Shown here one piece after another: positions 1,112 to 26,014 of a stretch of DNA of 27,526 nt (positions are counted from its first letter, which is position 1; every line of letters starts with the position of its first letter). The notes beneath the pieces were generated by a model that saw nothing but the letters and a program-made list of their open reading frames with translations, made no database searches and was not told the DNA's origin. Source of the stretch: a virus; the IMG/VR virus record IMGVR_UViG_3300025853_000522, positions 1 to 27,526 of that record. One strand, 5' to 3'. The position numbers and the translations under genes are program-made.

Positions 1112-1369
1112 CTATTTATCTTGTTCCTTTTTCTTTTTGTATCTACTAACTCTTCCTTTAGTATTTTTTTCATTTCTAGCCGCAGCTTTTTCAGCAGGTG
1201 TTAATTCACTCCAAGTTGATGGCGTATCTTTTGAAACTTTTTTGGTAGGTCTAAAAGTGTTTTCGTCTGTTTCGCTATAATCTTTTTTGCCGCTAGGTGT
1301 TTCCCATTCTTCTTTAAACCAACGGTTTAAGTTTTTAAACGGTGAGTTCATTTTAAAAGGCGAGCTCAT
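1112..1369 (-). CDS. Small basic phage protein with doubled N-terminal SPF tag (85 aa)
   Basis: Function unknown. The protein starts MSSPFKMNSPFK, two copies of the S-P-F tag found on other small proteins of this cluster. A middle block follows (EEWETPSGKKDYS, then NTFRPTKKVSKDTPSTWSEL), and then a basic tail ending KGRVSRYKKKKEQDK. From memory the middle block resembles a family of short proteins in uncultured marine phages; this was not searched. No signal peptide or membrane segment is visible. Its ATG overlaps the stop of the upstream 84-aa gene as TAATG, so translation is probably coupled. It is the last gene before the shared hairpin. High charge and small size would suit a nucleic-acid-binding or packaged protein, but that is inference. 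Confidence 0.7.
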   Translation of the reverse strand: MSSPFKMNSPFKNLNRWFKEEWETPSGKKDYSETDENTFRPTKKVSKDTPSTWSELTPAEKAAARNEKNTKGRVSRYKKKKEQDK

Positions 1370-1623
1370 TACTTTTTTGATGAATTACCCCAGTTAGCTG
1401 CACCTACTTTTCTGCATTTAACCATTGCTCCACTTCTATACGCAGAATTTCCTCCCTTATACCTTGCCGCTACTTTTTTATAACAAGCGTCCTTTAATTC
1501 TAAAGGTGATGTCATATCTTCAATGTGACTGTTAATTTCTTTTGATTGCTTTAAATGCATTTCAGAAGCTCCCTGCAATTCTTTAACTATTTCAGATAAT
1601 CTTCCTTTTTTTAATTTTCCCAT
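1369..1623 (-). CDS. Small conserved phage protein with Cys/Arg/Lys-rich C-terminal motif (84 aa)
   Basis: Function unknown. A helical, charged N-terminal half (about 1-40) is followed by LKDACYKKVAARYKG, then SAYRSGAMVKCRKVGAANWG, ending NSSKK. The Cys-x(n)-RYK-x(n)-SAY-SGA-x-VKCRKVGA pattern is one I associate with short proteins scattered through marine phage genomes, often near structural or lysis genes. I cannot name a curated family with certainty. The two cysteines and many basic residues might indicate metal or nucleic-acid binding, but two cysteines do not make a zinc finger. It begins 4 bases after the amidase stop and overlaps the downstream 85-aa gene through TAATG. It lacks the N-terminal SPF tag of its neighbours. 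Confidence 0.75.
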   Translation of the reverse strand: MGKLKKGRLSEIVKELQGASEMHLKQSKEINSHIEDMTSPLELKDACYKKVAARYKGGNSAYRSGAMVKCRKVGAANWGNSSKK

Positions 1624-1627
1624 TTAT

Positions 1628-2053
1628 TTATATATTACAATATTCTTTATAAGCATCAAAACACGGACAGCTTTTCGCGGCAAACTCATTGTGGCCATGA
1701 ATAGTTGCACTTGTATGCATTTTTTTTAATGTTTTAAGCAATAACAATAAGCTTTCTTTTTGCTCAGGCGTTCTAGTATCTTTAGCAATCCATTTGCCAT
1801 TATCTCCTCTTTCTTCTTCAACTCCTCCAATATAACAAATACCTATAGAATTTTTATTCATTCCTTTAACGTGAGCCCCTGGCTCATATACGCTACGGCC
1901 ATATTCTATTGTACCGTCTAGCAAAACAACGTAGTGGTAGCCTATGCCTTTCCAGCCTCTTTTTAAATGCCATCGGTTTATTTCAGCGGCATCTAAATGC
2001 CTACCTTCCTGTGTAGCGGAGCAATGAACAACTATTTTATCTATATTGCGCAT
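1628..2053 (-). CDS. N-acetylmuramoyl-L-alanine amidase (T7 lysozyme type), endolysin
   Basis: Cuts the amide bond between muramic acid and the peptide stem of peptidoglycan for lysis. The 141 residues form a single amidase_2/PGRP-type domain, close to the 151 of T7 lysozyme. The whole active site can be matched to T7: His10 (in KIVVHCSA, T7 H17), Tyr39 (in GIGYHYV, T7 Y46), His121 (in HGHNEF, T7 H122), Lys127 (T7 K128) and Cys129 (in KSCPCFD, T7 C130). There is no signal peptide or N-terminal membrane anchor, so export would need a holin; a candidate lies three genes upstream (2586-2741). In T7 the same protein also inhibits the phage RNA polymerase; nothing here shows whether this one does. 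Expression is late, within the minus-strand operon. Confidence 0.95.
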   Translation of the reverse strand: MRNIDKIVVHCSATQEGRHLDAAEINRWHLKRGWKGIGYHYVVLLDGTIEYGRSVYEPGAHVKGMNKNSIGICYIGGVEEERGDNGKWIAKDTRTPEQKESLLLLLKTLKKMHTSATIHGHNEFAAKSCPCFDAYKEYCNI

Positions 2054-2057
2054 ATAG

Positions 2058-2294
2058 TTAATTTTCTATTATTGATTTTTTCTTATTGCCTATATTAGTT
2101 TCAGGATTAGTAGGAGCAGGCTTAGGGTCTTGTTCTTCTTTTATGTTAGACTGCCATTTGCCATTTACGCAAGCCATTGTTTTAATTTCAGAATTAAACT
2201 CTTTCGCTTTTCCTCTTTTTATATAGCTTTGCTTTAATTTTTCTTTAGCAATTGAACACTTGTCTTGTTTTTGAAACGGTGAATTTGATCTCAT
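2058..2294 (-). CDS. Small SPF-tagged protein of unknown function (78 aa)
   Basis: Function unknown. I take the ATG at 2294, giving MRSNSPFQKQDKC. This start lies 4 bases after the stop of the upstream 95-aa gene and puts the S-P-F tag at the N-terminus, as in the sister genes. An upstream in-frame ATG at 2354 would add 20 residues and overlap the neighbour by 56 bases, so I reject it. The protein is highly charged, with KEKLKQSYIKRGKAKEF followed by a short MACVNGKWQS segment, then a Pro/Asn/Lys tail that is probably disordered. There is no membrane segment. It sits between the 95-aa gene and the amidase, so it may be a lysis-linked or packaged accessory protein, but nothing specific supports either. 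Confidence 0.65.
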   Translation of the reverse strand: MRSNSPFQKQDKCSIAKEKLKQSYIKRGKAKEFNSEIKTMACVNGKWQSNIKEEQDPKPAPTNPETNIGNKKKSIIEN

Positions 2295-2298
2295 ATTT

Positions 2299-2586
2299 TT
2301 ATTTTTTTTCTTTATGTTTATTACAAAAGCTTTTTGCAGCTGCAACGCTACCAAAGCCCCATTTTTTTAAAGCCATAGCTTTTCTTGTTGGCTCTCCTTT
2401 AGCGTCTTTCATAGCGCCTGCCATACCTGCAAATCTACATGCAAACGATACTCTTCGTTTACCTGTCCCCGATGTTTGTCTTGACCCTAAAGTTTTACCT
2501 GTTTCTTTTTTGTACTTAGACCGCATCTTGCGATTAGACTTTTCATAAGCTTGTTCCTTTATGAAAAGTGGTGAATTGTTTTCCAT
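2299..2586 (-). CDS. Small SPL-tagged basic phage protein, possible relative of a conserved phage/algal-virus domain (95 aa)
   Basis: Function unknown. It starts MENNSPLFIKEQ, a variant of the N-terminal tag (S-P-L for S-P-F). A basic linker is followed by a compact conserved-looking block: TGKRRVSFACRFAGMAGAM, then GEPTRKAMALKKWGF, then SVAAAKSFCNKHK. The RR-x-SF-x-CR-x-x-GM ... N/G-x-P-T/S-R-x-x-x-ALKKW pattern resembles a short domain of unknown function I recall from marine and algal viruses; I give no accession. Its ATG shares a base with the stop of the 51-aa holin candidate (TAATG). Many Arg/Lys residues and two cysteines fit a small nucleic-acid-associated virion protein, which is inference only. 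Confidence 0.7.
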   Translation of the reverse strand: MENNSPLFIKEQAYEKSNRKMRSKYKKETGKTLGSRQTSGTGKRRVSFACRFAGMAGAMKDAKGEPTRKAMALKKWGFGSVAAAKSFCNKHKEKK

Positions 2587-2741
2587 TACTTTTCTTGTTT
2601 AAGTTTAATCCATTTTGTTAACGTATACCCTATAGTTATTAAGAGTAAAAAAATTTTCAATCCATCTTCTATTTGTGTAAAAGTGGTTATGCTTAATGCT
2701 CCTGCATTAATGGCGTATAATTTCATGTCTGATATGCTCAT
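2586..2741 (-). CDS. Putative holin, 51-aa membrane protein
   Basis: This short gene fills the gap between the 165-aa and 95-aa genes. The product starts MSISDMKLYAINAGALSITT and ends KWIKLKQEK. There are two hydrophobic stretches: about residues 8-21 (weaker) and 28-43 (FLLLITIGYTL, strong), followed by a basic tail. That layout (short, membrane-spanning, positive C-terminus, next to an amidase) fits a small phage holin that forms inner-membrane holes so the signal-less endolysin can reach the cell wall. No family motif proves it; another small membrane protein is possible. The start has no Shine-Dalgarno, only an A-rich leader, and the stop overlaps the next start as TAATG. Confidence 0.7.
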   Translation of the reverse strand: MSISDMKLYAINAGALSITTFTQIEDGLKIFLLLITIGYTLTKWIKLKQEK

Positions 2742-2751
2742 TGTTTATTTG

Positions 2752-3249
2752 TTATTTTTTTACTTTGCCGTCTGGGCCGTATTTTTTATAAATATCTAAT
2801 ATTTTTGTACTTGTTTCTTTAGGAACAAAAGAACCTACAGATCCAGCAAAATTATTAGTTGCATCTTCTAGGGATTCCATAATAGGTCTACCGTTTAATA
2901 CATTCGTGGCTTCATGAACCAATCCTCCTATATTAGATCCTGCGCTAGCTACCATTTTTCCTAAAAAAGTATCTCCAAATCCTCCTAATTTTTTTTGTAT
3001 TGCTCTAGCTGTTTCGTCTCCTGCTAAATAATGTCTAGCTAAATCTCCGTACTCAAAACTATTTTGCTCTTCCATTAAACCGTCTTCGTCTGGAACTATA
3101 TTTAGGTATTCATCAGTTCTTTGTCTGGCTTTTTCCTGTGGAAAACCTAAATATTCTTCTGCTTGGTGTTCTAAGCTTTTATGAGGCTCTCCTTCATGCA
3201 TCGCAAAAGGGCTTTTTCCACAAAATTTTTTTTGAAATGGTGAACTCAT
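2752..3249 (-). CDS. SPF-tagged protein of unknown function (165 aa), coupled to the giant protein
   Basis: Function unknown. The N-terminus reads MSSPFQKKFCGKSPFAMHEG, so the SPF tag occurs twice within 16 residues, as in the 85-aa protein. An acidic helical part follows (about 22-75). The region with FGDTFLGKMVASAGSNIGG (about residues 93-111) is Gly/Ala/Ser-rich and mildly hydrophobic, possibly membrane-interacting. The C-terminus is lysine-rich. The ATG overlaps the stop of the 2984-aa gene as TAATG, so the two are probably translated together and may act together, for example both packaged in the virion. There is no catalytic motif I can recognise. Confidence 0.7.
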   Translation of the reverse strand: MSSPFQKKFCGKSPFAMHEGEPHKSLEHQAEEYLGFPQEKARQRTDEYLNIVPDEDGLMEEQNSFEYGDLARHYLAGDETARAIQKKLGGFGDTFLGKMVASAGSNIGGLVHEATNVLNGRPIMESLEDATNNFAGSVGSFVPKETSTKILDIYKKYGPDGKVKK

Positions 3250-6200
3250 TATTTATTTTTATACATTAGTTCTAATATTTTTTCTACTCGGTCTTTTTCA
3301 TATTTTAAAGCTCTTACTTGCTTTTTACTTAAGCCATAATCTAATAAAGTTTTTACTTGCTCAGGTTTATTTTCGCCTTTAATAGAATCAAACTGTCTTC
3401 TAAGCTTTCTTTCAGCGGTTTGTTTTCTAGGCTTTGTTTTTTTCTTAGGTTCTTCTTTAACTCCTTCAACCTTGGCTTCAGGTTTTACTTCAGGTTTTAC
3501 TTCTGGTGTAACTTCTTCTTTTTGAAGTTCTATTATTTTTTCAACTCTTTGCTGCTCTTTACCTAAAGCTTTTATTTCTTTTTTAGTAAGCCCTAAATCT
3601 AAAAGCATGTCAACTTGCTCTTGAGTTTTAGTTTCTTTCTTCATTGTATTAACATCTTCGATTGCTTGCTCTTCAGGAGTTAATACTTTTGCAGCATCAA
3701 ATCCACCGTAATAACCAAGACCTACATCCCATGTGGACCAACCTAAGCCTAGTGCAACTTTTTGCCAAAGAGCGGATTGTTCGTTTACAATACCCCGCAT
3801 ACTATTTAGCTTTTTTATAACTCTATCAAAAGGAACATTGGTAAGCCCTGTTGTTATTTGAGCACCTGCTAAATAAGCTGGATTGTCTAAACTAAACCCT
3901 TTGCTTTTTATATCTTTCATATTCCAACTGAAACTTCTAAGACCGCTGTTTATTTTTTGTATCTTAGAACCAAGAGGCGGCGAGAATCCTAATAAATCAA
4001 ATACTGCTTCTTCGTATTTGGATCTATCTTTTGCATGTTGCTTACCCAATTCCATTAAAGCACTCTTTACCGCAACCACTGCTGCGCCACCAATACCTAA
4101 TCCTTTAAGCTGCGAGTCAATCATACCGTTTGCTATTCTTGAAATCTTTTCACTTTTCTTAGCGTCCATTTCTTCTTCGTCATCTTCGCCAAAGCCTAAT
4201 GCAAATACAGCTTGTTGCAATGCATTGAATATTAAGTTTTGTATAGCACCGTAATAAACAATTTTAGATACGTTTGTTTTCCAATCTCCTCTGCCATTTA
4301 TAAGATCTTGGGCTGCTCTTTTTTGAATACGAGCATACTGCATAGGTGTGTTTGCCCACGCTAATATTACACGACCAGCACCTGATGCTTGTTGCGCACT
4401 AATTCTGTTTGGATTACTTGATTGTTGGCTTTCTTCTGCTATTTGTCTAAAATCGTCAAATGCTTGCTTTTCTGCAGCTTTCTGATCCATACCTTTAGCA
4501 ACTAAAGCTTTTACTCTATTTCTGTAAAATGTAGATCCTCCTGCTGCAATAGCAAAACTATCCGCAAATCTGGTCATAACAAAACCTTTGCTTAATAGGA
4601 ACGCTATAGCAGACTTTACTTTGTTTTTAGAATCTCTTACAGCGTCTGCTATTTCAGATTCACTTACATTTATTTTAAGTCCGTTTCTACGTTCAACTAA
4701 ATAATCAGAATTCATAAGTGTCATAAAGTCACTCCAGAATTGTTTTTGATTTGCAAATGCTAAACCAGCTTTAGCAATATTATTATCACCCCAGTTTATA
4801 AAGTTTACCGACGATATGGTTTGAAGCAATGCAGATCTTGTGTTTAAGAACATTACAGCACCCACAGAATTGTTTAACCAATCTAGCAATCCATCAGTAA
4901 CTCTGTTACCGCCTGGAGGTCTGTTGCTGCCAGATTTCATTCTACGTAAAGAATCCTCCATAGCTTCACGCCATCTAGTTCCGTATGCAGCTTCCATTTT
5001 ATTCATATTATCTTCTGAAAATATAATGTCTACATTTTCTCTCCACTCTTGTTGATACTCTGCTCTGTTTACTTTATTAATATCATTTATAATATCGCTA
5101 GTTATGTTGCCACCCAGCCAATTATTTCCAGGCTTAGGATAAGGTTTGCCTTTTTGAATTTTCATTAATTCATCTGTAAACACACTGAGCTCTGCATTGT
5201 TGCTTACAAAATCATTTAATTCTTTTATATCTTTTTTAGATAAACCTGGAATGCTCATACCTTGTTTAGACCATACAGCAACACGAACAGCCTGCGAAAA
5301 TGTAAATCCACCTATACCCGTTGGTTTGCTCAAGCTTTTAGGTAAAGTTTTTAGGTTTTGTTTTAACGCTTTAAAATCATTAGCTGCTGCTATTTTAGCT
5401 TGTGTTACAGCTGATTCAGCTCTATCATAAGGATCAAGTAAGTTTGTTTTAAGAAATGCCATTTGAGCATCTCCTTTTTTACCTTTACCTAACATTTTAT
5501 ATAACAATCCTGTGAAATCTTCAGCCGATGCTGGAATAAAGAAATTAAATTTTCCTTTGTTAGCACCAACTGTTTTAGCTCTAGCTGCAGAATATTTTTT
5601 ATAAGCTGCAATACCAGCCGAGTCTTCAATCATATCATTTACGATAGTATTAAAAGTTTCCCCTTTGCTTGCTTTAGCTAATTGAACTTTAGATTTAACA
5701 TCTACTTGGCCAAGCACTTCTTTAACTGCTTTTACGTTTTTAATAGCGTCATCTGCAAAATAAAAATCATTATAACCTTCAGCTGCCTTACCCATTATCC
5801 AACCTGCTTTGGCTTGTGCTGTGCCGTCTCCTAAGCCTTTAATATTCTTTAAAGGTATATCAATACCATTTGCTTTCATAAAAGCTTTTATAGGACCATC
5901 AGCATTTTGCGGTCTTGCCGTAAGTATAAAAACATCTTCTGTTCCTCTTGCGTCTGCTATTTTTTGAGCAACTTCAAACAAAGGCCCTTTCTTACCTTCA
6001 ACTACTTTGCTAAATTCAGAGAAGTCAAATTCAGCACCTTGAGATTCAAGATCTGAAGCTTGCTGAGCAAACTGCGTGGCGTTTATTTGAGTAGTAGAAC
6101 CATCAGGCATATTAACAATAACCATACTTTTTGATTTAGCCAATGTATCGTCAAAATCAAATACCCTAATTTTCTTAACAGGTTGATCTAGTTTTCTAGC

Positions 6201-9200
6201 AAGCTCTAAAGCTTTATCGGTTTTAGCTAAAGCGTCAATGCTCATAGGAACCGTTATGTCTCTATTGTATTCTATAGCCTTAGGAATTAAAATACTATTT
6301 CCTTTAGAGGCTTTCATCATGCCAGGCGCTAACTTGTCATAAGCTAATCCTTGTTTTCTAGCATTTTCTAAAGTTATATCACCGCTAAAAAAGTTTTTAA
6401 GTAATGTCTTTTGTATATTTGTTGGTAATCCATTTGTACCAAAAAAGTATTCAGAAAATGTTTTGTTTTCAGGTAAAAACTTGTAGTTGTCTAAGTTTAT
6501 ATCAGCTTCAACTAATCTTATTAAAGAGGCTGTTCCTTCTGGTATTTTTAAATCGCCTGATAATATTCTTGGAACCATAACATCCCAAAAGAAACCCGGC
6601 ATAGACCTACCGTATTTTATATTTACTTTGTTATCGTCAGCCATAGTTAAAGGGCCTTGCATATAAGCAGCTGATACAATTTTAAAAGTATTCTTTACAT
6701 TGCCATTTATGGCAGCAGCTAAAAGCATACTACCTACATTATTTTGGGGCATGTTATGCTCTTCTCTAATTTCAACGTTAAAATCTATTTCACCTTTACT
6801 ATTTAGAGGTAAATATAATATAGGAGGGCTTATTCTCATTAAGCTACCCATATCGTTTTGCGCATCGTCAAGCATTTGCTCAAATAAGAAATCTAATTTA
6901 GGATTTTTCTTTATAAAAGACTGAACATCTAACCAGTAATTTTCTAAATACTCAAGCTTAGCATATTGATCTTTCAAAAAATCTTTTTCGTTTGTTTTTT
7001 TAACAAAAGATTTAGACAATTTTCTTTTACTATCTTTGTAAGGATCTCTAGTTATTATTTCATAAACCTGCCCGTCTTTTATGATTAGCCTGTCAAATAT
7101 TTTAGTAGATCCCATGCTAGATCTTCCTAAGGAACTAGTAGTAGACTTTCTTATTATTTCCCTGTATTGTGGATACTCTTTTAAAAACGTATTTATAGCG
7201 TCCGTCATTAAATCTAGATTACCTCCTAGTATTTTATAACCTGACTTTAAAGGAATATTTTTATCTGCAGCTCTTTCTTTATTATTTATAATTCTAGCTG
7301 GTAAAAGCGGTAATCCAAGGAATTCTTTAACATCACCAAGACTTTTAAAACCTAAATCATTTAATTGTTTTACTGTGTAGTTTTTTAAAGTTCTACCTGT
7401 TATTTTACCTGTTTTGCTTTCTGCCGCTTCTTTAAAGTTTATCTTTTCACCACGAGAAGCCATAGACGTGTTTTTACCCGCAGCAACATCTTGCTTAGCT
7501 TCAAGACTTAAATCTGTGTCAGATCTTACAATTTCGTTTGTAACTAACTTACCGTATAGACTAGCAATACCTTTTAAAGCTTGAGCCTGAGAAGATCTAG
7601 CGTTAAACCCTTCTTGCTTTTTGCCATCAACAATGCCAAACGCTTTTAAAAATTGTGCTTTGTTTATTCCTTTATTTAAAACAAACGGAGCAAGCCCAGC
7701 ACCTTTGCCAAGTCTAGCTTTTTTAGTATAAAATGCGTCAAGCAATCCTTTTGGCACACCTGTAGAGGTGCCTAAGAGCTTGTCTGTTGCAGCTTCTACT
7801 ACAGCGCCTTCCGGTAATATCTTTAATAATTTATCTGCGTTCTTATTGACAAATTGCTGAATAGCCGTAGCATCTGCTTTTGATAAATTAGCAGCAGGAA
7901 CTGTAAGCTTTTTAACTGGTATGCCAATTTCTTTTGCAATAATTTCAGGAGCTAAGTCACCTAATTTTTTAAACGTTAAATTTTTAGGATCAATGTCTTT
8001 AACCTTATCCTGTATCTGTTCTTTAATTTGAGTTACCGCATCTTTAGATATAAAAGAGCTGGGTTTTATTTTTCTAATAACAGGTTTTGTAGCCACTTCT
8101 GTCGCTACTTCTTCAGCGGCAACTCCTTTAGCTTCTGTTACATCTGTAGTAAACTCTTCGCCTAAAACTCTTTGCGAAGCTTCTATAGCTCTAGCAGGTA
8201 AAAACTTATTTACATAAGCAGCTAATGGCACACCCGATTTAGGGTCGTATTCTTTAATTAAATCTATAATACCGCGTTTGCCTGTTTCAATTTCATCTGT
8301 TAATAATTGGCGATCAAAATTAGGTGCTTCGCTTCTTTTATCTACTATCTTATTTACAATAGGTTTAAATTGCTGTATAATATCAAAAGCACCATCTACA
8401 CCTTGAGCTTCAAATATTTTTTGAACTTTGCTAGAAGCTTCAATATTAGAATCTTTACTTTCTTTAACTGTATCATCATCTTCTTCAACAGTGTTAATTT
8501 TTAAAGTCCTATTTTGAACTCTGTCTTGAAAGTTAGACATAAAATTAATAACATCACTAGCTGAATCTAATCTAAGAAGCCAGCTAGAATCCCCCATTAT
8601 GCTAGATATAGTATTATTTAAAAAACCACGTACAGAAGGCATCATCCTAATATCGCTTCTACTTATTTTACCGAGTACAATAGCATTGTTTATTTGAGCC
8701 ATAACCTCCTCAATGTCAACACCGGCCTTGCCTCTTTCTCCAGATTTTAAAAACACTTTGCCTTTGCCTTCTTTATAAAGATTAAACCTAGACATTAAAT
8801 CATTATAATCTTCTTCTGTTATTAAGCCTTGATTTTTTTTATCTGTTATTATTCTAACAACGTCATTAATAGCATTTGTTGCAGATTCATCTAGCTCAAA
8901 ACTACCATCTTTATTTTTCTGTTTTCTTAAATTTTTAGAGTTAACATTCATATGAAATATTTCCTCTATAGGTGCAATAGCTGCATAATTTGCTTGCGCT
9001 CGAGTTCCAGCATGCATACGTAAATTTATAGCTGCTTGATTAACTATTATGTCATTTCCAACTTGAAGAGCGTTTGAGGGTGCATCTCCTGTTAATTTTG
9101 GCAATACATCTGCTATTTGATTATCTGAATACCCGTAATCTTCTTTTAATATTTTTTTTACTTCCTCAGGATTTGTAAAGTCTGAAATATTTATATACTG

Positions 9201-12200
9201 CCCATCGGGATTCATTAAAGTTAAAGCAACATCTGTTGCTAAATCATTAAGCCCTAATGTGTACTCTAAATCTATGTTAGCAGAAGTCCCTAGTTGTTCG
9301 TTTAAATTTTTAGCCTTAAGAGCCATTTCTCTAGCCTTTGTATTTAAAATTTTATCTTTAACTTCTAACAAAGCTGCAGCTTCTTTTTTAATTTCCTCTA
9401 AAGCATTTTTATTAGAATCTGAAGTATCGCCTGATTTGCCAATGCCTTTAGCTTCATTATTCATTTGCCTTAACTGCCTATTTATTTCAGCAACCTCAAA
9501 TATTTGTTCAGGAGTTAATCTGGACATTTTTTGCATAGTAGCACTGCTAGATAAAGCTAATTCTTTAATTATTGCTTTTTTTCTTTTTTTTGCAATTTTA
9601 AGATCATTCCCCTCCAAGCTTTCCATGCTAGCAAAAAGGTTTGTAAGCTCATCTCTTAGTTTTATATTATTTTTAATTTCATCACGACTAGAAAAATCCG
9701 ATTTAACAGCAGCTATAATAGTACCTGTTGTTGTAGGTGTTGTCATAGCTAAAGTGCTAAACAAAGTTTTTACAGCAAAATCTGCGTTAATACCTTCCAT
9801 AAGACTTTTATCTTCATCTAATGTAATAACATCAAGCACATTATGGCCCCAAGCGGTTACCGTTTCTTCAATAACTTCAATAGGCGCTGCTTTTGTAACA
9901 ACAGGTCTTAAACCTCTATAAACATTTCGGGCAGTTGTCCAGCCTGCAAATTGAAAATCATTTTTATATATTTTTGTTTTAATTACATTTTTCATTCCGC
10001 TTTTGGTAGCTGTTTTTCTAAGTATACTTGGTATTTTTAAAGTACCAACTCTTTCAGCCGCCATTGCTATACCTCCAGTAGTATAAGAATTAAAAGCTAA
10101 AGTGCTAAAACTTCTATTTAATTTTATTTCAGCTTCGTCTATTTCTTCTACTAAAGCATCTATTTCTTCTTGAGTAATTAAACCCCATCTTTTTTTCTGT
10201 TCAATGCCTTCTAAAAATTTTATAGCTTCATATTTTTGCGTGGATAAATCGTTAAATTTACCTCCAGCTTCCACTGTAAAAAATCCACCTTGTACAGCTC
10301 TTGATGCATACAAAGCTCTAGTTCTTTGTGCGGCAACGTAAGCTCTTTGTGCCTCAATATATGCTTTAGACCCCACCGTCAAACCCTCTGCTGCTTTAAA
10401 ACCTTTACCAACTGCCCCAAAAGGAAGCATAGACATAAGAATAGTTCCTGATTGATCAGAAGTAGCTTGAAGAGCGTAATCTGTAAAGTCAATACCTTTT
10501 TTTCCAATATCATTTAAAGTTAAAGCCGTAGAAAGTTTAGAGCGTTCTTTTTCAAGCTCTTTGTTGTATTCGTAAAATAGCTGTTGCATATTATCAATAC
10601 CTCTATCCATCAAAACGTCCATTTCTGGCGATTGTGTTACAGCTTTTATTCCTTCTAAAACCGTTTGACCAACTAAATTAGAAAAATTTGCAGGGCCAGC
10701 AACAAAAGTATCGTATATAGAAGAAGTTATTCTTTTCCAATTGCCATAATTTAAACTTAAATTTTTATCTATTAAAGCGGCTTTATCAAATAAATTTTCA
10801 GGTAAATTAGAAATATAATCGTTTTTAAGATTTGTTATTACCTCGTAAGATGCTTGCGTTTTATTCAAGGCTTCTACTTTAGCTTCAACATTTAATTTTA
10901 AATAATCGTTATATTTAACTTTATATTTTCCTTTTAAATCTTCAAGTTGTTTAATTTGTTCACTTGTAAAATCTGCATCTTCTGGTTTAAAAATAAATGT
11001 TGCAAAATTGCCGTCTTTGTCAGGGGACACTCCGGCCGCTTCAGCTTTTATTTTTGTAATTTGTTTTTGAATTTCGTTTAATTTATCAACAGTTGGCTTA
11101 ACATCTTTATCTAATATAGCAACTTGATTTTTTAATTGCTGCTCTATAGGCTTAATTTTATCATTAAAAGTATTTATTTCTTCTTCAGCCTTTCCTGCTT
11201 CTTCAAAAGTATCTGTAAAGTAATTATACATAGGAGAAAGCAAAGGATTAGTATCACCTTCAGCTTTTAGCCCTAATTGTATATTTTGACTTATTAAATC
11301 AAGTTCTGCTTGATAGTTAAACTCAGAAGGGGCTTCAAATTCTCCTTTTTTAAATTCTAAATACTCATTGTATTTATCCCCTAAAGTATTTTGTAAATAT
11401 TTATTATATTCTTCATCAGATTCAAATTCACGAGCCGCACCGTAAGCAGCGCCTTGTCCTGTGCTGGTTCTAACTGCGTTTCTGCTCTTTAAATTTTTTA
11501 AATTAAAATAATCTTCATTAGCTTTTTCTTTTACCTTTGATGGAGGCGGCGGGTCCAAAGCAAGCTCGTCAACTAAATTAGCAATTTTTCTTGATTCCAA
11601 AGCAGCTCCTGGTGAATTTAAAATATCTTTGTAAGGGAGCCTAATAGAACCCGAAGTAATTTCACCGCCGGAAGGCTTAAGACAAGGTGCGTTTGGATCT
11701 GGACAAAAATATTTTTTATATTCACCACTAGAAATAGTTGTAAAACCATCTTCACTTACAACGGCTGTGCTTGTTCCTCCGCTGCCTTTTTCTTTGGTTT
11801 CATCTATAGCATTTTGAACTATTAAATCGGTATCAATATTGCTTTGTATCTTAAGCTCTTCTTTTGTAGGGGCATATGGGTTTTTATACGTTACAACAGG
11901 CGGATCTTTTTCATTGTTTAATACATCCGAAGAACCATTTTCCGAATTTAAGACCGTATTGGTCGATCCTGTATTGGTCTCTGTTTCTACAACAGGATCG
12001 ATTTTCTTTACTTCTTCTAAGTCAAAAGGTTTAAATTCTTCATCTTTAGTTTCTTCTGGTTTAAGTACAGTTCCAGTTCCAACTGGCTCACTTTTTTCTT
12101 GCCCCCAGTTATTGTTTTTTTTCCATTGCTCAATAAGCTTTATTTTTTCAGGTTCAGAAAGATAAATTGGCAATGAATCTACATATTTTTGTAATTCGTT

Positions 12201-12203
12201 CAT
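3249..12203 (-). CDS. Giant multidomain virion/ejection-type protein (2984 aa) with HAD phosphatase domain
   Basis: Probably an internal virion protein delivered with the DNA, comparable in position and size class to T7 gp16-type or 'polyvalent' phage proteins. Visible parts: a polar low-complexity N-terminus with a C-P-D-P-N-A-P-C motif; charged coiled-coil-like sequence (about 330-470); a hydrophobic patch near 582-600; EEIFH at 1080-1084 with DIEE ending at 1166, resembling a degraded HExxH metallopeptidase site; a helical segment at about 1308-1357 (RGIIDLIKEYDPKSG) reminiscent of sigma region 2. A HAD phosphatase core follows: D2016/D2018 in FDFDDT, T2095 in ILTARP, K2132 or K2139, and D2151/D2152 in FADDA. 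A block starting MFLNTRSALLQ (2451) with INWGDNN looks conserved, and a hydrophobic segment lies at about 2645-2670. The C-terminus holds two copies of a ~35-residue module. Nearest neighbours are other probable internal proteins. The HAD call is firm; the ejection role is inference. Confidence 0.85.
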   Translation of the reverse strand: MNELQKYVDSLPIYLSEPEKIKLIEQWKKNNNWGQEKSEPVGTGTVLKPEETKDEEFKPFDLEEVKKIDPVVETETNTGSTNTVLNSENGSSDVLNNEKDPPVVTYKNPYAPTKEELKIQSNIDTDLIVQNAIDETKEKGSGGTSTAVVSEDGFTTISSGEYKKYFCPDPNAPCLKPSGGEITSGSIRLPYKDILNSPGAALESRKIANLVDELALDPPPPSKVKEKANEDYFNLKNLKSRNAVRTSTGQGAAYGAAREFESDEEYNKYLQNTLGDKYNEYLEFKKGEFEAPSEFNYQAELDLISQNIQLGLKAEGDTNPLLSPMYNYFTDTFEEAGKAEEEINTFNDKIKPIEQQLKNQVAILDKDVKPTVDKLNEIQKQITKIKAEAAGVSPDKDGNFATFIFKPEDADFTSEQIKQLEDLKGKYKVKYNDYLKLNVEAKVEALNKTQASYEVITNLKNDYISNLPENLFDKAALIDKNLSLNYGNWKRITSSIYDTFVAGPANFSNLVGQTVLEGIKAVTQSPEMDVLMDRGIDNMQQLFYEYNKELEKERSKLSTALTLNDIGKKGIDFTDYALQATSDQSGTILMSMLPFGAVGKGFKAAEGLTVGSKAYIEAQRAYVAAQRTRALYASRAVQGGFFTVEAGGKFNDLSTQKYEAIKFLEGIEQKKRWGLITQEEIDALVEEIDEAEIKLNRSFSTLAFNSYTTGGIAMAAERVGTLKIPSILRKTATKSGMKNVIKTKIYKNDFQFAGWTTARNVYRGLRPVVTKAAPIEVIEETVTAWGHNVLDVITLDEDKSLMEGINADFAVKTLFSTLAMTTPTTTGTIIAAVKSDFSSRDEIKNNIKLRDELTNLFASMESLEGNDLKIAKKRKKAIIKELALSSSATMQKMSRLTPEQIFEVAEINRQLRQMNNEAKGIGKSGDTSDSNKNALEEIKKEAAALLEVKDKILNTKAREMALKAKNLNEQLGTSANIDLEYTLGLNDLATDVALTLMNPDGQYINISDFTNPEEVKKILKEDYGYSDNQIADVLPKLTGDAPSNALQVGNDIIVNQAAINLRMHAGTRAQANYAAIAPIEEIFHMNVNSKNLRKQKNKDGSFELDESATNAINDVVRIITDKKNQGLITEEDYNDLMSRFNLYKEGKGKVFLKSGERGKAGVDIEEVMAQINNAIVLGKISRSDIRMMPSVRGFLNNTISSIMGDSSWLLRLDSASDVINFMSNFQDRVQNRTLKINTVEEDDDTVKESKDSNIEASSKVQKIFEAQGVDGAFDIIQQFKPIVNKIVDKRSEAPNFDRQLLTDEIETGKRGIIDLIKEYDPKSGVPLAAYVNKFLPARAIEASQRVLGEEFTTDVTEAKGVAAEEVATEVATKPVIRKIKPSSFISKDAVTQIKEQIQDKVKDIDPKNLTFKKLGDLAPEIIAKEIGIPVKKLTVPAANLSKADATAIQQFVNKNADKLLKILPEGAVVEAATDKLLGTSTGVPKGLLDAFYTKKARLGKGAGLAPFVLNKGINKAQFLKAFGIVDGKKQEGFNARSSQAQALKGIASLYGKLVTNEIVRSDTDLSLEAKQDVAAGKNTSMASRGEKINFKEAAESKTGKITGRTLKNYTVKQLNDLGFKSLGDVKEFLGLPLLPARIINNKERAADKNIPLKSGYKILGGNLDLMTDAINTFLKEYPQYREIIRKSTTSSLGRSSMGSTKIFDRLIIKDGQVYEIITRDPYKDSKRKLSKSFVKKTNEKDFLKDQYAKLEYLENYWLDVQSFIKKNPKLDFLFEQMLDDAQNDMGSLMRISPPILYLPLNSKGEIDFNVEIREEHNMPQNNVGSMLLAAAINGNVKNTFKIVSAAYMQGPLTMADDNKVNIKYGRSMPGFFWDVMVPRILSGDLKIPEGTASLIRLVEADINLDNYKFLPENKTFSEYFFGTNGLPTNIQKTLLKNFFSGDITLENARKQGLAYDKLAPGMMKASKGNSILIPKAIEYNRDITVPMSIDALAKTDKALELARKLDQPVKKIRVFDFDDTLAKSKSMVIVNMPDGSTTQINATQFAQQASDLESQGAEFDFSEFSKVVEGKKGPLFEVAQKIADARGTEDVFILTARPQNADGPIKAFMKANGIDIPLKNIKGLGDGTAQAKAGWIMGKAAEGYNDFYFADDAIKNVKAVKEVLGQVDVKSKVQLAKASKGETFNTIVNDMIEDSAGIAAYKKYSAARAKTVGANKGKFNFFIPASAEDFTGLLYKMLGKGKKGDAQMAFLKTNLLDPYDRAESAVTQAKIAAANDFKALKQNLKTLPKSLSKPTGIGGFTFSQAVRVAVWSKQGMSIPGLSKKDIKELNDFVSNNAELSVFTDELMKIQKGKPYPKPGNNWLGGNITSDIINDINKVNRAEYQQEWRENVDIIFSEDNMNKMEAAYGTRWREAMEDSLRRMKSGSNRPPGGNRVTDGLLDWLNNSVGAVMFLNTRSALLQTISSVNFINWGDNNIAKAGLAFANQKQFWSDFMTLMNSDYLVERRNGLKINVSESEIADAVRDSKNKVKSAIAFLLSKGFVMTRFADSFAIAAGGSTFYRNRVKALVAKGMDQKAAEKQAFDDFRQIAEESQQSSNPNRISAQQASGAGRVILAWANTPMQYARIQKRAAQDLINGRGDWKTNVSKIVYYGAIQNLIFNALQQAVFALGFGEDDEEEMDAKKSEKISRIANGMIDSQLKGLGIGGAAVVAVKSALMELGKQHAKDRSKYEEAVFDLLGFSPPLGSKIQKINSGLRSFSWNMKDIKSKGFSLDNPAYLAGAQITTGLTNVPFDRVIKKLNSMRGIVNEQSALWQKVALGLGWSTWDVGLGYYGGFDAAKVLTPEEQAIEDVNTMKKETKTQEQVDMLLDLGLTKKEIKALGKEQQRVEKIIELQKEEVTPEVKPEVKPEAKVEGVKEEPKKKTKPRKQTAERKLRRQFDSIKGENKPEQVKTLLDYGLSKKQVRALKYEKDRVEKILELMYKNK
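3252..3620 (-). repeat. Duplicated ~35-residue module at the C-terminus of the giant protein
   Basis: Residues 2862-2895 (EQVDMLLDLGLTKKEIKALG...) and 2948-2984 (EQVKTLLDYGLSKKQVRALK...) align without gaps over about 34 positions. They share EQV, LLD-GL-KK, AL and RVEKI-EL. Each looks like a small helix-turn-helix bundle, and a Pro/Lys/Glu linker (2896-2947) separates them. The copies have diverged at DNA level, so the duplication is not recent. The module may be a binding or oligomerisation unit. Confidence 0.85.
3481..3516 (-). repeat. 12-base tandem repeat, three units, coding for EVxP
   Basis: Three head-to-tail 12-base units on the plus strand read GGTTTTACTTCA, GGTTTTACTTCT and GGTGTAACTTCT. 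On the coding strand they give E-V-T-P, E-V-K-P, E-V-K-P within the linker between the two C-terminal modules of the giant protein. In-frame gain or loss of units could change linker length without breaking the gene. Confidence 0.8.
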
Positions 12204-13377: not shown

Positions 13378-14049
13378 TTATTGCCCAGCCGTAATAGTAG
13401 AAGAAGCTATACTGCCTAAAGAATTAAACATACCTCCTATAGCGCTTGCTTGGTCTTTATTCGCCTGTGCTTCTGCTTGCTTAGACATACCTAGCTGAGC
13501 AGCTACTCTGTCTAGCTCAGCAACTTGTCTTCCTTCTCTTGTGCTAAACATAAATTGTTCTCCTGCAACATCCGCCTGTTGTAATCTTTGTGCTTCAGCC
13601 ATTTTTTGTTGCTGTAAATTAGCCTCCCCTGCAGCTCTTTTATCTTCGTTGGCTTTTTCCTGTGACTCAATACTAGCCGCAACTCCTTTTTTAGACCGTA
13701 AAGCGGCTTGAGCTAACGCTGTGGCTCCACCAGCGCTCCCCCCTGTTTGTCGTATAGTGTCTAATGTATTTGCTAAAGATATATCAGCTTCTTCTATTTT
13801 CATTTCAGCTGCACCTGTAGCTACAGATAAATTGGCAAAAGGATTACTTACCATGCTACTTAAATCCGTTATACCTTCATATGGGTTTATTATAGCTTGA
13901 CGATTTTTTTCTAAATTATTTAATTTATTAGTAAGCCTTCTTCTTTCTCTAGCAGCAGCTCTAGCTCTTTTTTTAGCAGCATTAGAACCAAAAATTCCAC
14001 CTGCTATGCTTGCGACACCTCCTATGATGCCCACTGTTACCATGCTCAT
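13378..14049 (-). CDS. Internal virion protein, T7 gp14/P22 gp7-like (223 aa)
   Basis: Probably packaged in the head or neck and ejected early to help DNA cross the cell envelope. The N-terminus after MSMVTV is a glycine-rich hydrophobic helix (GIIGGVASIAGGIFGSN, about 7-23), followed by a very basic stretch (KKRARAAARERRRL). The rest is a long Ala/Gln/Glu-rich predicted coiled coil (about 75-200) with many QQ and EA steps, and a small hydrophobic C-terminus (GGMFNSLGSIASS). This pattern of glycine-rich membrane-active N-terminus plus alanine-rich helix is typical of T7 gp14-type and P22 gp7-type proteins, which diverge too far for motif proof. The start overlaps the cupin gene's stop by four bases (ATGA), suggesting coupling. 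Confidence 0.65.
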   Translation of the reverse strand: MSMVTVGIIGGVASIAGGIFGSNAAKKRARAAARERRRLTNKLNNLEKNRQAIINPYEGITDLSSMVSNPFANLSVATGAAEMKIEEADISLANTLDTIRQTGGSAGGATALAQAALRSKKGVAASIESQEKANEDKRAAGEANLQQQKMAEAQRLQQADVAGEQFMFSTREGRQVAELDRVAAQLGMSKQAEAQANKDQASAIGGMFNSLGSIASSTITAGQ

Positions 14050-14522
14050 ATTAGTATATTTTTATTGTTCATATTTTCGTATTCTTTGTAACTGGCACAA
14101 GTAAGAATTTCCTCTAGCTTATCAGTGTCTGTTATGTTGTCTGGGTTTGGGTGCACATTTATAAAAACCGAATCTTCTAAAGCCTTTATAACTCTTTTAG
14201 CACCTGATTTAGCGTTTACATATGTAGGAGCTTCATACTCAAAAGTGCCGCTTTCTGTAGCAACCTGTAAGTGACCTTTCATTAAAAACCACGTATGTGA
14301 TCTATTATGTATTTTACCAATAACAATTCCTCCTTTATGCATTTTCATTTCTCTAATATAAACGCCTTCTGAAAAAGAATGCGTTAAAGGAAAAGCTGAT
14401 GAATTGCCTTTAACTATTTGATCGTGCTCCATGCCTAGCAACTCGTTTTCTAAGTCTATTACTTGATTTCTAAAATTAGCTACCGTTAATTCTTTTGACT
14501 TGTAATTATTTAATTTATTCAT
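14046..14522 (-). CDS. Cupin-fold protein in the virion gene block (158 aa)
   Basis: A helical N-terminal part (about 1-40) precedes a small double-stranded beta-helix domain. GGIVIGKIHNRSHTWFLMKG matches the first cupin motif (G...H..H/S-H...F/E...G). PTYVNAKSGAKRVIKALEDS, followed by VFINVHPNP, fits the second, with alternating strands throughout. His residues in IHNRSH and VHPN could bind a metal, but the usual Glu of motif 1 is not obvious, so it may be structural and not catalytic. The C-terminal segment CASYKEYENMN is charged. I recall similar cupin proteins among structural genes of marine podoviruses, of unproven role (a tail or adsorption component, or a virion enzyme). The gene abuts the upstream hub-like gene with no gap. 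Confidence 0.7.
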   Translation of the reverse strand: MNKLNNYKSKELTVANFRNQVIDLENELLGMEHDQIVKGNSSAFPLTHSFSEGVYIREMKMHKGGIVIGKIHNRSHTWFLMKGHLQVATESGTFEYEAPTYVNAKSGAKRVIKALEDSVFINVHPNPDNITDTDKLEEILTCASYKEYENMNNKNILI

Positions 14523-22453: not shown

Positions 22454-23269
22454 TTATAGTTTTTTATCTATAGATTTATAGATTTCAACGCCTTCATCTG
22501 TTTTTAAGAAAGCCGCGAACGCTGAGTAAGGGTTTTCGTCAAAAGGAACGTTCATTAGTTTTCTGCCAGTTGACACCCAAGTAAATGTTCTTTGATCTTG
22601 TGATAAGCTTATAATGCCATTTTCTTGTGCTCTAATAGCAAAGTTTCTAAGCTGTACATTTTCATCATTAGCTAAGTTAATAAACAAAGCTGGATTATTT
22701 CTAGCAAATAATAATAGATCTCTTCTTAACTCTTTTGAACTCATTGCGTTTACTTTAGAACCTAATTCAACTCTAAGTATTGCTTCTGCTTGATCTACAT
22801 CCATAGATCTAGCTGCGTTTAATGCGTCAATTTGTAGATCTAAAATATCTAATTGATCCACTGCTTCTTTAATTGCGCTAAACTCTTCGTATATTCTTCC
22901 TTTTAATGGGTGATATAACGATAATAGCTTTTGCAAATTTTGTTTTTCTTTTGGGACTATCAAATCACCGTCTTTAAATATAATGTGGCCTAATGTTGCT
23001 TCGCCTTTTTGCTCATCTATAAGTGGGGAGTCCTGATTTGTAGCATATCTAATCTCTCTTTGTCTGCCCGTTGATTCATCAAAATATAGTAAAGAATGTT
23101 TTTTTGTATGTCTGCTTGGTATTGTTAATGTTAGGGGATTTTTATTACTTCTTAAGTAATAAACCCTATCTTTTATTTCCCAACTTGGTTTAGTTGTTTT
23201 TGGAGCGGATTTTACCGCTGCTTCTTGAGGTGCAACCTCAACTTGCTTTGCTTTAGCTTGTTTAGCCAT
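22454..23269 (-). CDS. Conserved head-associated protein of unknown function (271 aa)
   Basis: Function unknown; head-linked by position directly after the major capsid gene and by its own flanking hairpins. A basic/Ala-rich disordered start (about 1-28) is followed by a beta-rich domain: DRVYYLRSNKNPLTLTIPSR, then HSLLYFDESTGRQREIRYAT, and HIIFKDGDLIVPKEKQNLQK (about 30-120). A long helical part follows (about 125-200) with many Leu and Asp/Glu residues. The C-terminal part (about 205-271) contains RTFTWVSTGRKLM, DENPYSAFAAFLKTDEG and a final IYKSIDKKL. I recall similar proteins next to capsid genes in marine Bacteroidetes phages without an assigned role; decoration, minor capsid or head-completion protein are all possible. 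Its leader is nearly identical to that of the scaffold-like gene. Confidence 0.7.
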   Translation of the reverse strand: MAKQAKAKQVEVAPQEAAVKSAPKTTKPSWEIKDRVYYLRSNKNPLTLTIPSRHTKKHSLLYFDESTGRQREIRYATNQDSPLIDEQKGEATLGHIIFKDGDLIVPKEKQNLQKLLSLYHPLKGRIYEEFSAIKEAVDQLDILDLQIDALNAARSMDVDQAEAILRVELGSKVNAMSSKELRRDLLLFARNNPALFINLANDENVQLRNFAIRAQENGIISLSQDQRTFTWVSTGRKLMNVPFDENPYSAFAAFLKTDEGVEIYKSIDKKL

Positions 23270-24826: not shown

Positions 24827-26014
24827 TTAGTTAAATTTTTTTGTTTTAATTTTCAGTTTTGTAGAGTCAGCACCTGAAATTGCTTTAACTTTAAATCCAT
24901 TTAAAAACACTTCACCTTGAGTTGACCTAGCTTTGGCACTACTTAAGTTTTTTGAACTGTTTACGACTTCTTTCACAGCGTCTGCTTTTCCTTGCTCATA
25001 GAAATGAGCGGCAATCTTATCTACATTGTCAGCGGCATACATAGCTTTGTGATAACCTTTTGTATCTGTAACATTACCTTCAGCGTCTAGGAACTTCCCG
25101 ACAAGGTTTTTAATGTTAGATTGGCTTTCTGCAACTTTATCACGATTTTGAATGTTGTACTTATAATTCTTTTCGCCAACTTTAATATCGAAACCTTCGA
25201 AACTGTCGTTAAAAAGCTGTTTAGTACTTTCTTTAAATTGCGTGTGCTGTTGCTCAGCTTGTTCTTGCTGCTTATTATATCGGTTAAAAAAGTCCATAGC
25301 TTTTTGTTGGTCTTGAGTAACGCCCGGTCTCAACTTGATCTCGTCGTAATATTTACTCTTAGTTTCCTCTAAATAGCCTTTGGCTTTTGCAACTTCTTCT
25401 TTAAACGCAATTTTCTTTTTGCGCATATCTTTTTCCTCATCTACGTCTTCGTCATAAACAAAGTCTTCTAAAATGAGATCTATATCTTCGCCTTCTAAAT
25501 AAGGCTTTTCTTTTTTGTAATATTCTTTTAACAGAGTAACATCGTCTACTTTTGAGTAGTCAGCGTTAAGTCTTGTATAGTCCTCTATTGTCCCGCCTGT
25601 TTCTTCCATAAAGGAAACTAGCTTTTCAATATTTTCTGGCAACTGTTTGCCTAATATTTTTTCGTCTCTTAGTGCTTCCTTAACTTCGGCTTCAACCTTA
25701 GCTACTTCGACTTCTTTGATTGGAGAAAACCTCTCAGCATCCTCGTTGGGCTCTTGTATAGGTTCTCCCACCTTTGCGCTATCTCCGGATGGTTCTTCCA
25801 CAGATATCTTCTCTGTTTCTCCGATTTGAATGGCATCTTCTTTTTGTTTAGGTATTACTACTTTCTTGACGTCTGGCTCTAACTCAATTAAGGGTTCTTT
25901 CATGTTTACCTTAACTGGTTCTTCGCTTACGTTTGTTAGTTTTTTAGGAGTCTTCTTTTTTAATTTAAACTCACCTTCCTGTTTAACAGGCTCATTTGTT
26001 TTTACTTTTGACAT
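24827..26014 (-). CDS. Scaffold-like acidic/coiled-coil protein (395 aa)
   Basis: Probably guides capsid assembly and is absent or minor in the mature head. It sits between portal and major capsid genes, the classic place for scaffolds. The first ~110 residues are Lys/Pro/Glu-rich and look disordered (KLKKKTPKKLTNVSEEP and similar). Residues about 115-310 are highly charged helices (IDLILEDFVYDEDVDEEKDM, and MDFFNRYNKQQEQAEQQHTQ). The C-terminal quarter is more compact (HKAMYAADNVDKIAAHFYEQ), then a basic tail with KLKIKTKKFN. A basic C-terminus that binds coat protein is a known scaffold property (P22); that it acts so here is inference. There is no protease motif. The leader is a near copy of that of the 271-aa gene. 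Confidence 0.65.
   Translation of the reverse strand: MSKVKTNEPVKQEGEFKLKKKTPKKLTNVSEEPVKVNMKEPLIELEPDVKKVVIPKQKEDAIQIGETEKISVEEPSGDSAKVGEPIQEPNEDAERFSPIKEVEVAKVEAEVKEALRDEKILGKQLPENIEKLVSFMEETGGTIEDYTRLNADYSKVDDVTLLKEYYKKEKPYLEGEDIDLILEDFVYDEDVDEEKDMRKKKIAFKEEVAKAKGYLEETKSKYYDEIKLRPGVTQDQQKAMDFFNRYNKQQEQAEQQHTQFKESTKQLFNDSFEGFDIKVGEKNYKYNIQNRDKVAESQSNIKNLVGKFLDAEGNVTDTKGYHKAMYAADNVDKIAAHFYEQGKADAVKEVVNSSKNLSSAKARSTQGEVFLNGFKVKAISGADSTKLKIKTKKFN

Follow-up and report, generated by a model that had tools for sequence, protein, structure and literature searches.

The window, that is the whole 27,526-base stretch of a virus record analysed here, encodes four small proteins which begin with a common short peptide built around S-P-[F/L]. 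This peptide is a real, strictly N-terminal and modular tag, carried by otherwise different proteins. The first-pass annotation had described four minus-strand ORFs with such a start, two of them bearing the motif twice, followed by unrelated bodies. All four ORFs are present, the doubling is borne out, and the bodies belong to DUF5872 (85 aa), to DUF6321 (95 aa) or to no family (78 and 165 aa). The tagged ORFs and their neighbours are:

1112..1369, minus strand: 85-aa basic protein with a DUF5872 body (PF19197, E=2.5e-10), starting with MSSPFKMNSPFK
1334..1369, minus strand: doubled tag of the 85-aa protein, MSSPFKMNSPFK, whose SPFxx[KN]SP spacing is that of the class II tag (SPFMAKSP, see below)
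1369..1623, minus strand: 84-aa protein whose residues 39-41 are an internal SPL, ahead of a KDACYKK...AYRSGAMVKCRK domain, read from the sequence
1628..2053, minus strand: untagged amidase (endolysin; Amidase_2, E=2.3e-14; phrog_822, E=2.2e-55)
2058..2294, minus strand: 78-aa tagged protein of no known family (no Pfam or PHROG match), starting with MRSNSPFQKQ
2268..2294, minus strand: short tag of the 78-aa protein, MRSNSPFQK; relatives start similarly, with MRSNSPFRQDKC and MKSNSPFKQDKC
2299..2586, minus strand: 95-aa basic protein with a DUF6321 body (PF19846, E=9.4e-11), starting with MENNSPLFIK
2560..2586, minus strand: short tag of the 95-aa protein, MENNSPLFI; homologues start with MNQKSPLHIKE, MAYKSPINIKE and MKQSPFYIKE
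2752..3249, minus strand: late tagged protein of 165 aa, its body all-helical in the AlphaFold model, starting with MSSPFQKKFCGKSPFAM
3202..3249, minus strand: tag of the 165-aa protein, of the full bipartite class I, MSSPFQKKFCGKSPFA, read from the sequence
3249..12203, minus strand: giant 2984-aa protein (ORF without Pfam or PHROG family), upstream of the tagged genes

Four of the seven small ORFs of the window have SP[FL] within their first 13 residues, and three or more such starts occur in none of 200,000 shuffles of the seven. Across all the proteins of the window, the motif is present 6 times in 380 N-terminal residues, versus 3 times in the other 8,292. The untagged neighbours had been put forward as controls showing that local composition is not the cause. 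The motif is indeed absent from the amidase and from the 51-aa protein, and the shuffles exclude a composition effect, but the 84-aa neighbour does carry an SPL. In the sequence TSPLELKDACYKK, this SPL directly precedes the domain, and the 45-aa proteins of two contigs (L228 and L245) begin with MKLTKGSPFQLKDACYHKVKKQ, with an SPF near the start, right before a similar domain; the 84-aa protein is therefore not a clean negative control. Its internal SPL may possibly be a relict, or an internal tag. In 21 related IMG/VR contigs taken together with the window, 53 of the 690 dereplicated ORFs have [ST]P[FLIM] within their first 20 residues, versus 10.4 +/- 3.4 after shuffling. Chance and local composition as the origin of the tag are ruled out by the shuffles and the position tests.

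Two main forms of the tag are distinguished. The class I form is M-S-S-P-F-x3-F-x2-K-[S/T/N]-P-[L/F/I] and the class II form is M-S-K-F-S-S-P-F-M-A-K-S-P-L; weaker forms (MKPFT.KH...SPL, MALKKNFFKGLQGGVNxSPL, or a single SPF or SPL) are found on several bodies. The contigs used are fragments, partly redundant, and their ORFs were called mechanically. A scan of 2.9 million viral contigs with the class I pattern M-x-S-P-F-[KQ]-[KQ]-x-F, with ATG-anchored retrieval, returned 49 contigs, 40 of which have the full bipartite tag, and several different tagged genes are often adjacent in them. The same pattern has 46 matches in 257 Gb of cellular genomes, a single one of which fits the full bipartite tag, and these cellular matches are read as chance. 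The class II pattern K-F-x-S-P-F-M-x-K-S-P (KF.SPFM.KSP), which includes no start codon, gave 30 matches in the same number of viral contigs, and all 30 sit 1-5 codons past the sole upstream ATG of their frame. The strict tag, counted in 2,340 distinct ORFs, stands at the N-terminus in 82 cases and inside the protein in two, one of which (L135) is probably an over-extended start. The first-pass annotation had proposed searching marine phage genomes for the pattern at N-termini, and enrichment there is clear (82 versus 2; 30 of 30); similar tags in uncultured phages, which it mentioned, are real and appear in these scans. In the scans run, the tag is confined to relatives of the window phage, a family of uncultured marine phages. 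Searches of the open-access literature with the tag strings found no paper which describes it.

The bodies behind the tag are diverse. Clustering of 150 tagged ORFs gives about 65 body clusters, an approximate figure given that short, Lys-rich mosaics split and merge and that a looser setting merged 48 of 80. In one contig (L241), three neighbouring genes have the class II tags MSKFSSPFMAKSPLD, MSKFSSPFMAKSPLN and MSSKFSTPFMAKSPLN, each followed by a different body. Conversely, the same body can follow different tags: the sequence ...KSPIDKKLVGKQHRLPEE stands behind MNASKFSGPFMK in G022 and behind MSSPFQKEFIK in L133. Common descent of the whole proteins is excluded by the number of body clusters and by the differing domains. 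Even if the tagged proteins are not packaged, a strictly N-terminal signal of 14 residues on some 65 kinds of bodies calls for an explanation.

In the class II tags and in the second half of the class I tags, serine is encoded by both TCN and AGY codons, which are two base changes apart, so the residues are kept at the protein level. The tag is thus selected largely as a peptide. The beginning of class I is different: its first six codons, ATGAGTTCACCATTTCAA, hardly vary, silent positions included, possibly as a result of the recent spread of a 5' cassette or of an effect on translation. Tags are also slightly more alike within than between genomes (p=0.0085 for 12 pairs, some of which are nearly duplicate), which hints at a partner specific to each genome. 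Both observations would also suit a tag that has no function as a protein, the peptide being the by-product of a 5' DNA segment which spreads by recombination or helps translation to start. We consider this very improbable: across the TCN/AGY switches, the class II tags and the second half of the class I tags keep their residues, and F, K, F, K and P are kept in divergent homologues of the 165-aa protein.

The capsid protein encoded in the window shares 36-48% identity with the major capsid proteins of Panino (a Maribacter phage), of Flavobacterium Elemovirus and of Cellulophaga phi38:1/Calle (Pervagoviridae), and it is weakly similar to that of phi46:3. One tail protein contains the C-terminal domain of the crassvirus muzzle protein (PF25729, E=2e-7). 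On the basis of these two proteins, the phage is a podovirus related to crassviruses and similar to Pervagoviridae, an informal placement; flavobacteria are its putative hosts, as read off from the hosts of the capsid relatives. The capsid protein is found in 30 of 42 records, mostly tag-bearing, and in none of the four false-positive controls among them. In the regions read of the cultured, capsid-sharing relatives Elemovirus, Panino and phi38:1, the tag is absent, and it is therefore dispensable for assembly across the wider group.

We propose that the tag is an address label which loads small late proteins into the virion for delivery to the host, an explanation to which we give about an even chance. 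The tag, found on many late proteins that are small, mostly basic and unrelated to each other, would be a short, flexible N-terminal address peptide and would bind one common phage-made partner, either in the virion or in the assembly pathway. Candidates for this partner are the major capsid protein, a scaffold-like protein (24827-26014), the portal, a 271-aa protein (22454-23269), parts of the giant protein and GroEL. Through this partner the tagged proteins would be loaded into the particle as internal cargo and, after adsorption, they would enter the host along with the DNA. The bodies could therefore turn over fast, while the label stays fixed. The common partner, the packaging, the injection and the host-directed functions of the bodies are all inferred. 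The giant 2984-aa protein is, judging by its position, a candidate for ejected cargo.

The 22 contigs contain 40 tagged ORFs, every one of them on the structural strand, which holds 724 of the 1,031 other ORFs (Fisher p=2e-6). The tagged ORFs group at three places: upstream of the terminase, among the tail genes and downstream of the giant protein. Sorted by distance from the capsid gene, 11 are upstream, 25 follow the giant protein on its downstream side and 4 lie between tail genes, a noisy split in which two contigs are cut at another point of the genome; the 11 upstream ORFs are near GroEL/GroES in the contigs read. The tagged proteins are about 100 aa long, and their bodies are more basic than untagged proteins of 50-260 aa: the net charge per residue is +0.053 versus +0.010 (p=7e-8) and the Lys content 15% versus 10%. 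No match to defence-system models was obtained for ten tagged proteins.

Two other readings of the tag were rejected. Of 251 residues which follow the proline of the motif, 238 are F, L, I, V or M and 5 are K; this hydrophobic position is at odds with a DNA-binding motif of the SPKK type (S/T-P-K/R-K/R). A Sec or lipoprotein signal peptide does not fit either, since the sequences, as read, show no hydrophobic core in tags such as MSSPFQKKFSAKSPL.

The location within the structural operon would also agree with small proteins anchored to the surface of the particle at a single site, as head fibres, decoration proteins or part of the tail hub, and N-terminal anchors with variable bodies are known. 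In phi-crAss001, the tail fibre gp22 docks in the hub by residues 1-26 (PMC10172136). Such a role seems unlikely for bodies that are short, Lys-rich and basic, and that are of the DUF6321 or DUF5872 type or helical, with no recognisable fibre or adhesin fold. Alternatively, the late proteins would stay unpackaged, and the tag would bring them to a partner outside the virion, for instance the GroEL/GroES of the phage or a complex for lysis or assembly. One tagged array adjoins phage GroEL/GroES genes, the array of the window surrounds the lysis genes, and a T4-type prohead protease was not found in 16 records; nothing points to a specific partner, however, and four relatives have their homologue of the 165-aa protein among tail genes, so that we hold this second possibility to be rather improbable.

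The structure of the 165-aa protein, which has no Pfam or PHROG match, was modelled with AlphaFold (mean pLDDT 80.7). The body is predicted to be all-helical with good confidence, and the pLDDT is below 50 at residues 1-5 and 8-21. The model thus predicts a disordered or flexible tag in front of a folded body, as the address-label proposal would have it. A Foldseek search of PDB and BFVD gives no match to the body at E<=0.001. The four homologues in the relatives mentioned above sit between tail genes. The tags of this family vary (MSSPFQKKFSEKTPF, MSFSSKFTGKNPI, MNFSKKFLGKNPL), and the homologues keep only M1, F5, K8, F9, K12 and P14 of the tag.

DUF6321 (PF19846) and DUF5872 (PF19197) are small viral domains, which include the bodies of the 95-aa and 85-aa proteins, respectively. 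The DUF6321 proteins of Methylophilales, Pelagibacter and Synechococcus phages have no tag, unlike the 95-aa protein. In phages MEP301 and HTVC200P, untagged DUF6321 relatives adjoin portal, scaffold or capsid genes. In the open-access literature searched, one paper mentions DUF5872. The nearest indirect evidence for packaging comes from phi38:1, in which small basic proteins encoded upstream of the terminase carry the annotation of structural proteins by similarity to phi18:1. The small structural proteins gp69, gp77 and gp80 of phi38:1 have no tagged homologues in the contig set, and the link to virion data is therefore by position only.

The first-pass annotation had also suggested processing of the tagged proteins by a protease. 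A protein of 102 aa, conserved and with invariant HExxH and WExEA motifs, occurs in 53 of the 85 tagged sources versus 4 of the 47 untagged ones, and its gene is mostly less than 2 kb from a tagged gene. This protein, not found in the window and below the Pfam cut-offs, loosely resembles minigluzincin and IrrE-type metallopeptidases in its predicted structure (Foldseek probability up to 0.91, with an E value that is not significant). It could process the tagged proteins, or it could be cargo itself. We nevertheless hold it quite improbable that a phage protease such as this one recognises or processes the tag: 32 tagged sources are without the HExxH protein (many of them are fragments), the protein itself bears a tag-like start, and no residue is conserved just after the tag. 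Together with the absence of S77/S78 matches described below, this leaves processing without direct support, even if the small HExxH protein is among the tagged genes in many relatives.

Of the earlier idea of a detachable tag acting as a sorting signal, the detachable tag is strongly supported: it is strictly N-terminal, precedes tens of unrelated bodies, is confined to these phages in the scans run and uses both Ser codon families. As to its role, loading into the capsid is the best supported of those proposed, and plausible on account of the late-strand location, the small basic bodies and the precedent of the T4 internal proteins. If the tag is a packaging label, sequence would suffice to list the injected proteins of uncultured phages, which the T4 leader made possible for the internal proteins of the T-even phages, and a large set of small proteins would be worth testing against bacterial defences. 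The tag would represent a second solution to the question of how phages pick the proteins they carry; it would also be a candidate peptide with which to load capsids with foreign proteins. More tentatively, and we regard this as possible rather than probable, uncultured phages of the flavobacterium type may have an undescribed protein-level addressing system, in which a virion component reads a single peptide code of at least two dialects without a T4-type scaffold and prohead protease, and through which dozens of different host-directed proteins are loaded and exchanged.

The window phage and phi-crAss001 have a related tail architecture, judging from the muzzle domain PF25729. Crassvirus virions are rich in protein cargo, and the cargo genes (C1, C2 and RNA-polymerase-associated) are in the structural region (PMC10172136). 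These cargo proteins are large (60-277 kDa), with no common N-terminal tag described in the portion of that report used here, whereas the tagged proteins are about 100 aa long.

The closest parallel is with the internal proteins of T-even phages. The window phage, a podovirus of the crassvirus/Pervagoviridae type, is unlike T4, and packaging of its tagged proteins is a proposal. T4-type processing, in which the leader is cut by the Peptidase_S77 gp21, was rejected as a candidate: S77/S78 prohead proteases (PF03420, PF04586) have no match in 16 records, all of them fragments that may miss a gene, and the T4 positive control of the S77 search matches at 4e-113. As no residue is conserved after the tag and S77/S78 was not found, any mechanism differs from that of T4. 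The T4 head proteins gp68 and gp21-gp24 show no resemblance to the tag, and the tag is likened to the T4 capsid-targeting sequence (CTS) by the anatomy of the leader, not by sequence alignment to the T4 ip genes. The T-even internal proteins (T4 Ip1-3) share only an N-terminal leader, which directs their packaging into the head, and they are injected to block host defences (PMC12373910, PMC3012670). A leader shared by non-homologous small proteins is also what is found here (82 N-terminal versus 2 internal occurrences; about 65 body clusters). As with the CTS of IPI, IPII and IPIII, one short N-terminal leader precedes several small non-homologous bodies at variable loci (PMC3012670, PMC12373910).

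The first six codons of the class I tagged genes (ATGAGTTCACCATTTCAA) are nearly invariant at the DNA level despite the unrelated bodies that follow, and this conservation exceeds the expectation from codon usage. Examples are the gene starts at 3232-3249 of the window and in the viral contigs L130, L140 and L160. The 84-aa protein of the window carries TSPLELKDACYKK ahead of its own domain, and MKLTKGSPFQLKDACYHKVKKQYKVFPSAYASG starts 45-aa proteins in contigs L228 and L245.

Window 1369-1623, minus strand, 84-aa protein
Window 14046-14522, minus strand, 158-aa protein

The 158-aa protein, flanked by structural genes, resembles (E=5.5e-30) PHROGs annotated as short tail fibres and adhesins.

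The tagged bodies themselves look like mosaics in sequence, because short modules (e.g., LSQKTKDSLQNKA...FYSKKHKVYVDGEDGVL) are shuffled among those of three contigs.

L172:12268-12813, tagged body
L170:694-1146, tagged body
L227, tagged body

Many arrays also contain a very conserved protein of 65-70 aa with a short SPF start (FPEIKEENKGKFTAWAKKNGFKDACSAASAVM).

L134:1788-1988
L077:7484-7681
L137:7397-7600, and others

DUF6321-like proteins occur untagged in Methylophilales and Pelagibacter phages, where head genes adjoin, and in a Synechococcus phage.

L126:3962-4234
L127:3914-4165
L128:3890-4171

The class II tagged body at L238:12280-12669 (SWLDWAQDGLTAGGMIPAVGAIPDIIN...AAIIPVVGQG) has no Pfam match and contains no toxin domain; it is reminiscent of the helical pre-toxin region found in polymorphic toxins.

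L082:4526-4834, plus strand, 102-aa protein among tagged genes

This conserved protein, with invariant HExxH and WExEA motifs, lies among tagged genes in L082 and about 50 further contigs, and none was found in the cultured flavobacterial relatives. Its predicted structure loosely resembles minigluzincins and IrrE.
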